The notes beneath the pieces were generated by a model. It was not told the DNA's origin. It saw nothing but the letters and a program-made list of their open reading frames with translations, and made no database searches. Shown one piece after another: positions 1 to 5,038 of a DNA stretch of 64,000 bases (position 1 is its first letter; the number at the start of each line of letters is the position of its first letter). The position numbers and the translations under genes are program-made. The DNA comes from Brachybacterium sp. EE-P12 (GTDB taxonomy: Bacteria; Actinomycetota; Actinomycetes; Actinomycetales; Dermabacteraceae), in assembly GCF_003711805.1 (NCBI RefSeq), contig NZ_QXCP01000006.1, positions 62,001-126,000 on the forward strand, given 5' to 3'.

Positions 1-41
1 GGGCGCGGCGAGCTCGAGTGCCGCGAGCCGTCCCTGGCACC

Positions 42-677
42 ATGAGCACCATGAGCACGTCCACCGCGCCCCGCATCCTCCTGTTCATCGGCGACTCGAT
101 CACCGACTGCGGCCGACGGGAGGACCCGGACGGCCTCGGCCACGGCTACGTGCGAATGTTGGCCGAGGAGCTCCGTGCTCGCGAACCCGACACGACGGTC
201 CTGAACCGCGGCATCAGCGGGCACAAGGCCGCCGACCTCGTGGCCCGCTTCGAGCAGGACTGCCTCGGCCTCGCCCCGGACCTGGTGACGGTCTACATCG
301 GCGTGAACGACTCCTGGCACTACACGACGGGGCGCGACGAGCACGTGGACGAGGAGTCCTTCGAACGGGACTATCGGTGGATGCTCGACCAGATCGCCGA
401 GCACCTGCCGGGGACCGCGGTGACCCTGGTGGTGCCCTTCGTCGCGGACGTCGACGAGGACGTGCGCCGGATCCACGACGATCTCGATCCGAAGGTCGCG
501 ATCATCCGTCGCCTCGCCCTGGAGCACGGCCACACCCTCGTCGACCTCGAGCAGCTCCTCGCCGGCGTGCTCGCCACAGGGATGCCTCCCGAGCGGTTCG
601 CCGAGGACGGCGTGCATCCCACCCCGATCGGGCATCGCGCCATCGCCGACGCCTGGCTCGACGCCGTTCGCCCCTGA
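42..677 (+). CDS. SGNH/GDSL-family hydrolase
   Basis: Predicted small intracellular esterase/lipase-like hydrolase of 211 residues. The four SGNH blocks are visible: FIGDSITD near the N-terminus (Ser19 as nucleophile), NRGISGHKA (block II Gly), YIGVND (block III Asn) and DGVHPT near the C-terminus (catalytic Asp and His). No signal peptide or membrane segment is seen, so a cytoplasmic enzyme acting on an acylated sugar or similar ester is likely; the substrate is unknown. The start is uncertain: ATG at 42, ATG at 51 and GTG at 18 are all in frame and none has a good ribosome binding site. Upstream context lies outside the window. Confidence 0.85.
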   Translation: MSTMSTSTAPRILLFIGDSITDCGRREDPDGLGHGYVRMLAEELRAREPDTTVLNRGISGHKAADLVARFEQDCLGLAPDLVTVYIGVNDSWHYTTGRDEHVDEESFERDYRWMLDQIAEHLPGTAVTLVVPFVADVDEDVRRIHDDLDPKVAIIRRLALEHGHTLVDLEQLLAGVLATGMPPERFAEDGVHPTPIGHRAIADAWLDAVRP

Positions 678-761
678 GCCTCCACCCCGCAGAGCGCGCA
701 CAGTGCCGGAGCCGCCCCCGGCGAGCGCCCGGGACCGGTGAGCACCGCAGATCGTCGAGCC

Positions 762-785
762 TCCCGGACCAGGGAGCATCCGGGA
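762..785. terminator. Hairpin between convergent genes
   Basis: A 7-bp perfect inverted repeat (TCCCGGA at 762-768, TCCGGGA at 779-785) with a 10-nt loop lies between the SGNH hydrolase stop and the stop of the converging peptidase gene. It has no T-rich tail. Its position suggests a bidirectional terminator, but the evidence is only the inverted repeat. Confidence 0.35.
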
Positions 786-788
786 CCG

Positions 789-1652
789 TCACCGCAGCGG
801 CGCGCTGATGTCGGCGGAGAGGAACCCGCGCCGGAACGAGCGCGCATCGAGCACCACCACCTCCGCGGGCCGCACCGGATTGCGCAGGTGCACGTGCCCG
901 CTGCGCGCATCAGCGCCGACGAGGGCGAAGACGTGGTTGGGCGGCAGCGGCCCGGCGACCGTGCCCACGCGAGGGCTCAGCGGATGGGTGGAGGCGCACA
1001 GCGCCCGTCCCTCGGCCCTCCAGGCGAGGATCTGCGCGGCATCGGGGAGCCGCAGCCGGGTGCGCACCCGCTCGCCCGTGAGCAGCTCGAGGCCGAAGCG
1101 GGCGATGCCGCGCTGCAGCATCCCGTAGCCGCCCGCGACATGCCCGGCGATCGCCTTCTCGAGCACGCCCGCCCAGCCGGGGTTCGCGCCGTCGCGCCGG
1201 GCGTGCTGGAACACGCCGCGCTCGTCGACGGGCAGGCGTCTGTCCACCAGCAGCGGGCCGTCCACGCCCGGCAGACGCACGGGGACGAGGCCGTCCTCCT
1301 CGGCGCCCACCAGGGCGCGCAGCCGCTCGGGCGCCGTTTCGTGGAGGGCGAGCATCGGCGCCATCAGCCAGCAGTCCCCGAGCCGGCCCTGCCGCGGCCG
1401 GCGCAGCACGTCCGGTGCGAGGGGTCCGCGGTCCAGGGCGAGGGCGACGGCGTGCGGGCCGGGGGAGAGGTGCAGCACCGTCCCGTGCGAGGCCGCGCCG
1501 TCGGCCGCCGCCGCGTCGGCCCTGAGAGGCTCGTGGGGCGATCTGCCGAGCGCGCCGGCCGTCCCGGAACGCGCAACGCGCGCCCGCCCCGACGGGGCGA
1601 GCGCGCGCAGGGTGCGGCGCCAGGTGCGCACGCGCGGGCGGGAGCTGCTCAC
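789..1652 (-). CDS. Calpain-like (family C2) cysteine peptidase
   Basis: A 287-residue protein resembling the catalytic core of calpains. The motif RQGRLGDCWLMAPMLAL (Cys94) matches the calpain cysteine block. WAGVLEKAIAGHVAGGYGML (160-179) matches the conserved W-LLEKAYAK-GGY segment, and NHVFALVGAD (His240) followed by HLRNP (Asn258) supplies the rest of a Cys-His-Asn triad. There is no signal peptide, calcium-binding domain or other domain; the N-terminal 50 residues are Arg/Ala rich. The GTG start is supported by a GGAGGG site about 6 nt upstream. It begins 31 nt after the phosphofructokinase stop, so the two are probably co-transcribed. Bacterial calpain homologues are known but sporadic; the target of this one is unknown. 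Confidence 0.75.
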   Translation of the reverse strand: MSSSRPRVRTWRRTLRALAPSGRARVARSGTAGALGRSPHEPLRADAAAADGAASHGTVLHLSPGPHAVALALDRGPLAPDVLRRPRQGRLGDCWLMAPMLALHETAPERLRALVGAEEDGLVPVRLPGVDGPLLVDRRLPVDERGVFQHARRDGANPGWAGVLEKAIAGHVAGGYGMLQRGIARFGLELLTGERVRTRLRLPDAAQILAWRAEGRALCASTHPLSPRVGTVAGPLPPNHVFALVGADARSGHVHLRNPVRPAEVVVLDARSFRRGFLSADISAPLR

Positions 1653-1683
1653 GAGGCCCTCCGCCCGTCGGTCATCGGGACGC

Positions 1684-2904
1684 TCAGTGCGCCTCGGCCG
1701 GGACGATCTTCTGCCCGGTGCGCTCCATGACCTCCGCGAACCAGGGCTGGGAGATGTCGAAGGCCTTGTGCCCGGCGACGCGGTCGAACTCGACGGCGCG
1801 CAGCACGTCCCCGCGCTCCTCGTCGTGTCCGATCAGGCCCGAGCCGCCCTCGAGGGCGACCTGCACCGCGTAGTCCGTCATCGACTTGATCAGACGGATG
1901 TCCTCGGGGTTCGCCTTCGCGGAGCGGGAGAAGTAGCCGGACTTCTGGACCATGACCTTCTCGGCGCCGAGCTTCTCCGCGAACTGCTTCGCGAACCACT
2001 GGCCGGGGTTGATCGTGTCGATCTTGACGTGGCCGAAGGGGTCCTTCTCCGGCTCCTCGCCGCGCTCCTGCATCTCGGCGATGATCTCGGGGATGCCCGC
2101 GCCCTCGGACAGGAAGATGTTCACGCAGCCGGCCTCGTCCATGACCTTCTTCAGGCGCGCGGCCTCCGCCTCGATGTCGAGCTTCAGCTCGGGCAGGAAC
2201 ACGGCGTGGACGTCCCAGCGCTCGGCCTTGTGGCCGATGCCGGGCAGCCACTGCTGCGTGGAGTGCCAGTCCTGGTAGTACTCGGCCGCCTGCGCAGTGA
2301 GGTACCCGCAGGCGCGGCCCATGATCTCGTGGATGATCAGCATCTTCGGGTTCGAGCCGTGCTCGGCGATGATGTTCTGCGCGAAGATGCTGGTCTGCTC
2401 CGCGGCGGACTTCGCGCCGAGCGACTGGCGGATCGGCACGATGTCGTTGTCGATGGTCTTGGGAAGGCCCACGACCTGCATCTCGTGGCCGTGCTCGTGC
2501 AGGTACGCGGCGAGGTCGGCGGCGGTGGTGTTGGTGTCGTCGCCGCCGATGGTGTGCAGCACGTCCACGCCGTCGGCCTTGAGCTTGTTCGCGGCGACCT
2601 CGAGGGCGTTCTCGCCCTCGGCGATCAGGCCGCGCTTGACGAGGTCCTTCGTGTTGGTGAGCTTCACGCGGGAGTTGCCGATGGGGGAGCCGCCGAAGTC
2701 GTGCAGCAGACCGGCCTTCGCACGCACCTCGTCGTCCACGACGAAGTACTCACCGGAGAGCAGGCCCCAGTAGCCGTGCTTGTAGGCGATGATCTCGACG
2801 TCCGGCACCAGTTCGGTGTAGCGCTCGATCAGGCCGCCGACGGCGGAGGAGAGGCACGGGGCGTAGCCCCCGGCGGTGAGAAGTGCGACGCGCTTGACGG
2901 TCAT
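1684..2904 (-). CDS. pfkA: 6-phosphofructokinase, PPi-type signature
   Basis: Phosphorylates fructose 6-phosphate to fructose 1,6-bisphosphate in glycolysis. The 406-residue protein has the PFK nucleotide loop GGDDTNT (120-126) and the catalytic loop PKTIDND (148-154, Asp152 as base). The second Asp of GGDD (Asp123) and the Lys of PKT (Lys149) replace the two glycines typical of ATP-dependent enzymes. In the PFK family this pair marks pyrophosphate-dependent (often reversible) members, so the donor may be PPi rather than ATP; that is family knowledge, not shown here. The ATG has a GGAGGT site about 10 nt upstream. The calpain-like gene follows after 31 nt. Confidence 0.93.
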   Translation of the reverse strand: MTVKRVALLTAGGYAPCLSSAVGGLIERYTELVPDVEIIAYKHGYWGLLSGEYFVVDDEVRAKAGLLHDFGGSPIGNSRVKLTNTKDLVKRGLIAEGENALEVAANKLKADGVDVLHTIGGDDTNTTAADLAAYLHEHGHEMQVVGLPKTIDNDIVPIRQSLGAKSAAEQTSIFAQNIIAEHGSNPKMLIIHEIMGRACGYLTAQAAEYYQDWHSTQQWLPGIGHKAERWDVHAVFLPELKLDIEAEAARLKKVMDEAGCVNIFLSEGAGIPEIIAEMQERGEEPEKDPFGHVKIDTINPGQWFAKQFAEKLGAEKVMVQKSGYFSRSAKANPEDIRLIKSMTDYAVQVALEGGSGLIGHDEERGDVLRAVEFDRVAGHKAFDISQPWFAEVMERTGQKIVPAEAH

Positions 2905-2979
2905 AGGGCGGAACCTCCGAGAGTCCGGGAACGGGCGCGCAGGAGGACAGGGTCGATCCTGCGACGCTGGGTTCTGCTC

Positions 2980-2985
2980 ATCGTA
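2980..2985 (-). promoter_or_regulatory. Putative -10 element for pfkA
   Basis: TACGAT on the minus strand, about 75 nt upstream of the pfkA start, in the 184-nt gap after hisN. It fits the actinobacterial TANNNT -10 pattern. No convincing -35 is visible. It overlaps the ATG of a possible 26-codon upstream frame, so the two interpretations compete. Confidence 0.35.
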
Positions 2986-3088
2986 CCGAGACCGCGCCGT
3001 CGACGCCGACGCGCAGGCCCTGCTGGGACGCGGGGACGAAGCGCGGCCGCCCTGCCCGCTCCGGCGCGTCGCGGGCGCCGCCCCGGGC

Positions 3089-3883
3089 TCAGCTCTCGCG
3101 CTGGGCGAGCGCCTCCAGCACCTCCTCGTGCAGCAGCGAGTTCGTCGCCACCGCGTTGCCGCCGAAGGGCCCGGGCTCGCCGTCCAGGGAGGTGAAGCGG
3201 CCCCCGGCCTCGGTGACGATCGGCACCAGCGCGACCATGTCGTGGAGGTTCAGCTCGGGCTCGCAGGCGACGTCGACCGCGCCCTCGGCGACCAGCATGT
3301 AGGACCAGAAGTCGCCGTAGGCGCGGGTGCGCCAGAAGCGCTGCATGAGATTGAGCATCTGCGGCAGGCGGTCGGTCTCGGCCCAGCCGTCCAGGGAGGA
3401 GTAGGACAGCGAGGCCTCCTCGATGGTGGGGACGGAGGAGACCTGCAGACGGGTCGCGCTGCTCAGCCGCGAGCCGGTCCAGGCGCCGGCGTCCTCCCCG
3501 CCCCACCAGCGCCGTCCGAGCGCCGGCGCGGAGACGAGGCCCACCACGGGCCGGCCGTCCTCGATCAGCCCGATCAGCGTGCCCCACACCGGCACGCCGC
3601 GCACGAAGTTGCTGGTGCCGTCGATCGGGTCGATCACCCACTGGCGCGGCGAGGCGCCGGTGCTGCCGAACTCCTCGCCGATCACCTGGTCCCGCGAGCG
3701 GGCGCGCGAGAGCTGGGAGCGCACCAGCTGCTCGGCGGCGGTGTCCGCATCGGTGACCTCGGTGAGATCGGGCTTGGTGGAGACCTCGAGGTCCTGCGCC
3801 TTGAACCGGGAGGCGGTCAGCTGGTCCACGGCGTCGGCGAGCACATGGGCGAGGCGCAGGTCATCGGCATAGCGGCTGGACAT
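3089..3883 (-). CDS. hisN: Histidinol-phosphatase (inositol monophosphatase fold)
   Basis: Last phosphatase step of histidine synthesis, histidinol phosphate to histidinol, in the IMPase-type version used by actinobacteria. The 264-residue protein shows the IMPase metal motifs VIGEEFG (Glu70/71) and WVIDPIDGT (85-90), and the C-terminal NLHDMVALVPIVTEAGG block. The segment RAYGDFWSYMLVAEGAVD resembles HisN more than SuhB, but a general inositol-phosphatase role cannot be excluded. I chose ATG 3883. A TATCGT -10 element ends 7 nt before it, implying a nearly leaderless transcript; an upstream in-frame GTG at 3907 would lie upstream of that start point. Confidence 0.82.
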   Translation of the reverse strand: MSSRYADDLRLAHVLADAVDQLTASRFKAQDLEVSTKPDLTEVTDADTAAEQLVRSQLSRARSRDQVIGEEFGSTGASPRQWVIDPIDGTSNFVRGVPVWGTLIGLIEDGRPVVGLVSAPALGRRWWGGEDAGAWTGSRLSSATRLQVSSVPTIEEASLSYSSLDGWAETDRLPQMLNLMQRFWRTRAYGDFWSYMLVAEGAVDVACEPELNLHDMVALVPIVTEAGGRFTSLDGEPGPFGGNAVATNSLLHEEVLEALAQRES

Positions 3884-3890
3884 GGACTCC

Positions 3891-3896
3891 ACGATA
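3891..3896 (-). promoter_or_regulatory. Putative -10 element, near-leaderless hisN
   Basis: TATCGT read on the minus strand, ending 7 nt before ATG 3883. Transcription would begin at or next to the start codon. No good -35 is seen. Confidence 0.4.
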
Positions 3897-3967
3897 AAGT
3901 CCCGCACCCCGGGGGCGCGGGATTGACCGCGCCCGCCGCCCGGGTCGCGCCCGTCGGCCGCCGTGGC

Positions 3968-5038
3968 TCAGACGTCCCAGGGGTCGTTGCGGCGCAGCAC
4001 CTCGGCGAGGCGCCGGTACGAGGCCAGGCGTGTCGGCCCCGCCGTGCCGGCCCGTCCCTGCTCCACCAGCTCGTCGAGGGCGCAGTCGGGGGCGTCCTCG
4101 AGATGGGTGCAGCCGCGCGGGCACTCCTCGGCGAGGTCCGCGAGGTCCGCGAAGGCGTCCAGCAGCTGCTCGGGGTCCACGTGCCCGAGGCCGAAGGAGC
4201 GCACCCCCGGCGTGTCGATCACCCAGCCGTCGTCGCCCGGCAGCTGCAGGGCGAGGGCCGACGAGGAGGTGTGCCGGCCCCGGCCGGTGACGTCGTTGAC
4301 CTGGCCGGTCGCACGGTCCGTCCCCGGCACGAGCGCGTTCAGCAGCGTCGACTTGCCCACCCCCGAATGGCCGACGAGCACGCTGATCCGGCCCGAGAGC
4401 CGCTCGCGCAGCTCCTCGAGGCCGACGACCCCCGGCCGCGCGGGATCCTCCGACTCCGCGGGGCTCTCGCGCCGGGTCACCACGTGCTCGAGGCCGAGCG
4501 GGGCGTAGGCGGCCAGGAACTCCTCGGGAGAGCGCAGGTCCGCCTTCGTCAGCACCAGCAGCGCCTCGACCCCTGCGACATAGGCGGCGACCAGGCAGCG
4601 GTCGATCATGCCGCCGCGCGGCTCGGGATCGGCCAGCGCCGTCACCATGACCATGAGGTCCACGTTCGCGACCAGCGGCCGCTCGGTCGCGTCGTCGTCG
4701 TCGGCGCTGCGGCGCAGGAAGGAGCTGCGCTCCTGGATCCGCACGATGCGGGCGAGGGTGCCGTCGCGTCCTGAGACGTCTCCGACCAGGCCCACCAGGT
4801 CGCCGGGGACGACGGGGGAGCGGCCCAGCTCACGGGCCCGCATCGCGGTCACCGCGCGCTGCTGCGCGGTGCCCTCGGCGACGACGGTCCGCCAGCGGCC
4901 GCGGTCGACTGCCACGACCCGCGCCGTGACCGCGTCCTCGTGCTTGGGACGGTCCTTCGTTCGAGGCCGCGAGCCGCGCCGGTTGGGACGCACGCGCACG
5001 TCGGACTCGTCGAAGTCCCGCACTGACCGCCTCACCAC
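3968..5038 (-). CDS. rsgA: Ribosome small subunit-dependent GTPase A
   Basis: Late-stage 30S assembly GTPase of 356 residues with circularly permuted G motifs, diagnostic of RsgA/YjeQ. TKAD (G4, 164-167) precedes GHSGVGKST (G1, 223-231) and DTPG (G3, 275-278). An N-terminal OB-fold region (about 38-105) and a C-terminal zinc knuckle (ECPRGCTH...DC, about 307-322) complete the family plan. The N-terminal 35 residues are basic (Arg/Lys rich), as expected for an rRNA contact. GTG start with GGAGGG about 8-9 nt upstream. It follows aroA by 58 nt and is probably in the same transcript. Confidence 0.93.
   Translation of the reverse strand: MVRRSVRDFDESDVRVRPNRRGSRPRTKDRPKHEDAVTARVVAVDRGRWRTVVAEGTAQQRAVTAMRARELGRSPVVPGDLVGLVGDVSGRDGTLARIVRIQERSSFLRRSADDDDATERPLVANVDLMVMVTALADPEPRGGMIDRCLVAAYVAGVEALLVLTKADLRSPEEFLAAYAPLGLEHVVTRRESPAESEDPARPGVVGLEELRERLSGRISVLVGHSGVGKSTLLNALVPGTDRATGQVNDVTGRGRHTSSSALALQLPGDDGWVIDTPGVRSFGLGHVDPEQLLDAFADLADLAEECPRGCTHLEDAPDCALDELVEQGRAGTAGPTRLASYRRLAEVLRRNDPWDV

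Follow-up and report, generated by a model that had tools for sequence, protein, structure and literature searches.

A calpain-type protease gene at a stable locus downstream of pyrophosphate-dependent phosphofructokinase in Brachybacterium and Dermabacter

The window analysed here, a 64,000-nucleotide stretch of contig NZ_QXCP01000006.1 from Brachybacterium sp. EE-P12, carries near its start a minus-strand gene for a calpain-type protein of peptidase family C2 (positions 789..1652), recognised by its open reading frame (GTG start, TGA stop, 287 aa), a match to PF00648 and a fold match. Upstream on the same strand lies the gene for pyrophosphate-dependent phosphofructokinase (PFP; 1684..2904), which is matched by PF00365 and, at 714 bits against a cut-off of 395, by NCBIfam NF005121. 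The gene 3' of the calpain gene in the window is convergent. A first-pass annotation of this DNA had described a calpain-like gene directly downstream of phosphofructokinase, 31 nt away and with its own ribosome binding site. The open-reading-frame map agrees, with both genes on the minus strand and a gap of 31 nt between the PFP stop and the calpain start (1653..1683, minus strand), and a ribosome-binding-site-like GGAGGG box can be read from the sequence at 1657..1662 (minus strand), with the GTG following 4 nt further on. The label pfkA given to the neighbour has been corrected, as the NF005121 score identifies the PPi-dependent enzyme. A second gene of the PFK family is present elsewhere in the genome (contig C18, 711170-712060) and scores much better against PF00365 (324 bits, versus 119 for PFP), so PFP is not the sole phosphofructokinase of this organism. 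Neither a terminator-like nor a promoter-like site was found in the PFP-calpain gap when positions 500-4100 were scanned; the sole terminator-like site in that scan lies at 3900-3922, against a background of 0.5. Likewise, an Rfam scan of window positions 1-5000 at gathering scores returned no structured RNA match near the junction.

Profile searches place the protein in a single Pfam-A family, PF00648 (Peptidase_C2; residues 87-249, 39.0 bits versus a cut-off of 23.8, E 6e-10, well outside what chance would give), which is also matched by all 29 aligned orthologues, and no NCBIfam family was matched. Among PDB sequences, phmmer reached human calpain-1 at E 1e-4. Structure prediction points the same way: an AlphaFold2 model built from a 29-sequence alignment has a mean pLDDT of 83.7, with residues 1-55 below 50 and every 10-residue block from residue 71 onward averaging at least 84, and all 40 Foldseek matches of this model in the PDB at E <=0.001 are calpains, with calpain protease cores matched at E about 1e-9. 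VIA-align superimposes 220 residues of the model on 1kxr_A with a Z of 19.9, compared with 10.4 for staphopain, the highest-scoring non-calpain; the 1kxr_A alignment (model range 55-284) delimits a predicted calpain protease core (CysPc) at codons 55-287 (792..1490, minus strand). Relative to the classical calpains, represented by the protease cores of human calpain-1, -3 and -9, the Brachybacterium protein shares the predicted core fold (Z up to 19.9) and the same order of Cys, His, Asn and oxyanion Gln, whereas identity is about 20-26% and the best alignment sets 230 model residues against a chain of 315 residues. It also differs in lacking the C2-like and penta-EF-hand domains of the classical enzymes, as Peptidase_C2 is the only Pfam domain and the chain does not extend beyond the core. 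Profile, catalytic residue order with oxyanion Gln, and modelled CysPc fold thus all agree with membership in peptidase family C2, and the protein, as modelled, is a genuine calpain-type core. In a separate line of inquiry, a role in anti-phage defence was rejected, since PADLOC models matched the protein with 0 families at E 0.1.

The catalytic signature proposed in the first-pass annotation, consisting of Cys94 (GDCWL), His240 (NHVFAL), Asn258 (LRNP) and a W160/LEKA/GGY block, is present in full in the translation, and the structure prediction by which it was to be checked agrees with it as far as the fold and the order of the residues are concerned. Conservation was assessed in an alignment of 29 orthologues, comprising the protein of the window and 28 more rows from Brachybacterium and excluding the broken copy of genome G034 (see below). 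In this set the nucleophile Cys94 (1371..1373), the base His240 (933..935) and the oxyanion-hole Gln88 (1389..1391; aligned to calpain-1) are invariant (29/29), and the third catalytic residue, Asn258 (879..881), is Asn in 24 sequences and Asp in 5; all four codons are on the minus strand. Further invariant positions include W11, R12, P158, E165, R257 and P259, along with the stretch S221-T222-H223-P224-x-S226. In calpain-1, the residues aligned to Arg85 and Pro158 are the calcium site-1 acids. Classical calcium-dependent calpains carry acids at site 1, the one site compared, whereas the Brachybacterium proteins have Arg85 (28/29) and Pro158 (29/29) there. It might be argued that the protein is a non-catalytic C2 homologue serving only to bind other proteins, given the Asp found at position 258 in five orthologues and the existence of non-peptidase C2 homologues noted in the parts of the calpain survey of Rawlings 2015 (PMC4631099) drawn on here. 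That reading is extremely unlikely, however, as Cys94, His240 and Gln88 never vary and, according to the same parts of PMC4631099, an Asp in the third position may still function.

Selection on the gene was gauged with NG86 estimates of dN/dS over the 14 pairs of lowest dS for each part of the protein, which gave 0.20-0.37 for the catalytic domain and 0.25-1.02 for the N-terminal part. In eight chosen pairs, the corresponding values were 0.06-0.17 for PFP and 0.15-0.41 for the SGNH gene that commonly adjoins the calpain gene on its far side. The catalytic domain is therefore under purifying selection, to the degree of an ordinary accessory gene; the constraint on it is comparable to that on the SGNH gene and looser than that on PFP.

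Ahead of the core lies a basic motif, WRRxLRxL (codons 11-18; 1599..1622, minus strand), which is predicted with low confidence to be helical, has W11 and R12 invariant in 29/29 orthologues and is joined to the core by a disordered linker of variable length. The helical moment of this segment is larger than in composition-shuffled versions (5% level) for only 13 of 30 sequences, and is at most suggestive of a membrane-binding amphipathic helix. The combination of a conserved motif and a variable linker suggests a tether or an autoregulatory tail. Dermabacter proteins, judged by eye, possess a similar basic N-terminal stretch. In keeping with the first-pass remark that there is no export signal, a scan for hydrophobic segments found none, the highest 19-residue Kyte-Doolittle mean being 1.0.

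The gene occurs in both Brachybacterium and Dermabacter, genera that the NCBI taxonomy places in the family Dermabacteraceae. By tblastn, an orthologue was detected in 33 of 38 Brachybacterium genomes, directly downstream of PFP and on the same strand in all 33 (30/30 loci first surveyed, plus L041, L042 and L043), and the same adjacency occurs in 4/4 Dermabacter genomes, including Dermabacter hominis. Adjacency is thus kept in 37/37 family genomes with the gene at the PFP locus. Two of these copies are incomplete at the ends of assembled sequence: that of G020 matches up to residue 144, close to a contig end, and that of G005 runs off its contig. In G034, a 2.7-Mb Brachybacterium genome (L033, L052), an in-frame TGA stands between the N-terminal motif and an otherwise open catalytic domain, and this may reflect disruption of the gene, an error in the sequence or independent expression of the two parts. 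Two near-complete Brachybacterium genomes have no intact gene at all; in G035 (L035) it is cleanly missing from the interval that separates PFP from the SGNH gene, and in G029 (L034) a decayed remnant lies between PFP (87-1304) and the SGNH gene. The remaining cases are G001 and G003, incomplete genomes in which neither calpain nor PFP was matched, and G006, which has no calpain and in which PFP is cut by a contig end. Elsewhere in the family, five genomes of four other genera possess PFP with no calpain match beside it (5/5); one genome of these other genera without a PFP-linked copy, G067, has a divergent C2 homologue (L048:2813-3715) beside a dnaK-like gene. Every near-complete genome that lacks the calpain still has PFP. 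Given its loss or disruption in several members of the genus (G035, G029 and G034), the calpain gene is dispensable.

The surroundings of the gene are conserved to differing degrees on its two sides. Scanning of genome contigs showed that aroA, rsgA, hisN and PFP precede the calpain in 20/20 family loci, making it the tail of a slowly rearranging block. The PFP-calpain gap measures 10-106 nt in 29 of 30 loci with script-chosen starts; in the remaining locus, L030, the calpain overlaps PFP through a start that is probably misplaced. On the far side, a convergent SGNH gene is found in 27/33 Brachybacterium loci (only partially in L006, and with two of the misses at contig ends) and in 0/4 Dermabacter loci. 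The better preservation of the PFP side fits dependence on the PFP promoter, and the gene-order data suggest that the linkage is old and probably reflects an operon. Conserved adjacency can nevertheless be passive.

Brachybacterium genomes also harbour calpain-domain proteins of a second type, and the genome of EE-P12 itself encodes two further C2 proteins besides the PFP-linked one. These paralogues (L049:7227-8981, with L049:8978-9268; L050:7073-8596; L051; and L123-L137) possess a C2 domain with the same core motifs as the PFP-linked calpain and differ in three respects, namely an N-terminal WxGxD..F region, a small downstream ORF and a separate position in trees. Specifically, the WxGxD..F motif precedes the C2 domain in 15/19 paralogue ORFs, versus 0/30 PFP-linked proteins and 0/11 Brevibacterium relatives, and a small ORF of 90-119 codons on the same strand, often overlapping the stop, follows 10/19 paralogues versus 1/28 PFP-linked genes. 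That lone PFP-linked case reads as the antisense of the SGNH gene, and the two candidate partner ORFs that were scanned gave no Pfam match. On these features, the paralogues look like WXG/ESX-type secreted effectors, with the small ORFs as candidate inhibitors or immunity proteins. The PFP-linked protein, in contrast, displays neither the N-terminal WXG-type domain nor the small partner gene by which such effectors are recognised, and is likely set apart from them. It could still be supposed that the protein is exported or injected by a route invisible in its sequence and acts outside the cell, and passages of PMC4631099 do describe some bacterial calpains with signal peptides or WXG100 domains. 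The lack of any hydrophobic segment, of WxGxD (0/30) and of a convincing downstream partner (1/28, antisense-looking) makes this very unlikely.

The closest parallel to the PFP-linked protein is seen in Brevibacterium, where stand-alone calpain genes at eleven loci (L103, L106, L108-L112, L117, L120, L122 and L140) all have infA and rpsM close by (11/11). Like the PFP-linked calpains, the encoded proteins have a single C2 domain with Cys, His and Asn intact (11/11), no WxGxD and a similar C-terminal end; they differ in a longer N-terminal part, in an identity of about 28-33% and in their infA/rpsM neighbours. Trees were built from a domain set that leaves out L029, L033 and seven remote homologues (L113-L116, L118, L119 and L121), with three rows dropped from the first tree and three more from the second as fragments or long branches. 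The PFP-linked rows (28 from Brachybacterium, 4 from Dermabacter) group with an SH-aLRT support of 99 in the first tree, and they join the Brevibacterium set with 96 and 98 in the two trees, which are unrooted and for which the program warns that long branches meet. It is therefore probable that the stand-alone proteins form one branch, present at two fixed loci that are unrelated to each other, and this argues against a function specific to PFP.

These trees bear on the proposal that the PFP-linked gene is a domesticated effector. A secreted calpain of the WXG type would have been stripped of its secretion domain and its partner gene, leaving a C2 domain that now has a use, or simply persists, within the cell. 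A source would be at hand in the WXG-type C2 paralogues of the same genus, and an AU test did not reject a tree grouping the PFP-linked with the WXG-type rows (p 0.075). The placement of PFP-linked and Brevibacterium proteins together on one side of a branch, by the support values just given and with the same reservations about rooting and long branches, argues against such an origin, which is considered unlikely but worth keeping in mind.

The first-pass annotation had also raised the prospect of a cytoplasmic calpain linked to sugar flux, and in its strongest form this would make the protein a dedicated metabolic regulator, expressed together with PFP so that it can cleave PFP or a different glycolytic enzyme and thereby alter how much flux passes between glycolysis and gluconeogenesis, or in which direction. 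The unbroken adjacency within the family (37/37) and the better retention of the PFP side relative to the SGNH side speak in favour of such a regulator. Adjacency alone is weak evidence, however, because the whole aroA-rsgA-hisN-PFP block is equally stable (20/20). In addition, PFP persists without the calpain in G029, G035 and the five genomes of other family genera, and PFP is not the genome's only PFK-family gene. The neighbourhood survey that had been suggested as a check gave a divided answer: the PFP link is kept inside the family, but homologues outside it are scattered, with PFP in 0/22 flanks (several of them short) and the Brevibacterium copies beside infA, so that linkage to PFP was not seen in independent lineages. 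Tested by gene order both inside and outside the family, the sugar-flux link is unsupported, and a dedicated regulator of this kind is quite improbable. The evidence from gene order points to a common transcript and a stable arrangement of genes, over a role in sugar metabolism.

Taken as a whole, these data are best read, with a probability of roughly 0.6, as describing a cytosolic, single-domain and probably calcium-independent C2 endopeptidase that is vertically inherited at one Brachybacterium/Dermabacter locus and is translated as the last part of the PFP transcript. The calpain would share an mRNA with PFP, which would thereby supply its expression, and its core would assemble without calcium. 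Cys94, His240 and Asn258, with Gln88 in the oxyanion hole, would then make limited cuts in cytosolic proteins, and the basic WRRxLRxL segment on its disordered linker may serve as a tail for localisation or regulation. None of the data call for a specific role in glycolysis. It is tempting to go further and envisage a core-genome, calcium-independent calpain that is tethered through WRRxLRxL to a cytosolic partner or the membrane, and whose PFP-tied synthesis makes limited proteolysis follow the switch between glycolysis and gluconeogenesis, but this more ambitious version is doubtful and is offered with little confidence.

Calpains of Brachybacterium are not new to the literature. In the passages covered, Rawlings 2015 (PMC4631099) lists homologues from Brachybacterium faecium and B. 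paraconglomeratum as short proteins consisting of the peptidase domain only, the former being 258 residues long. A GTG at codon 8 of the L011 orthologue would give 258 aa, a PFP-linked copy is present at L081, a B. paraconglomeratum locus, and the listed homologues very probably belong to the same orthologous family as the PFP-linked calpains. The same source assigns Brachybacterium to the Firmicutes; NCBI places it in the Actinomycetota. Gene neighbourhoods are not discussed in the passages covered of PMC4631099, from whose text the word "phosphofructokinase" is missing, and literature searches, with subscription papers mostly outside their coverage, found no paper on the PFP linkage. What appears to be new is the near-universality of the gene in the genus, its fixed locus, the WRRxLRxL motif and the likely separation from the WXG-type paralogues.

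The gene is thus genuine but unexceptional within a known and functionally open family, at a locus that is unusually stable; according to the portion of a 2022 paper drawn on here (PMC9380684), what calpains do in bacteria is still not known. The covered parts of Rawlings 2015 (PMC4631099) stress how scattered the distribution of bacterial calpains is, with only a minority represented within genera, in contrast to the 33/38 genomes recorded here. Against this background, a single-domain calpain that has no secretion domain, occupies the same chromosomal position in most of a genus and is under purifying selection could allow the role of a bacterial calpain inside its own cell to be asked about directly. 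Should that role prove to be metabolic, it would constitute a new kind of proteolytic control, and if the PFP-tied, tethered reading were true, a bacterial calpain would gain a concrete physiological context in the cell that makes it. If the role is not metabolic, the locus would still mark off, within one genome, a household branch of calpains from one of the secreted type.
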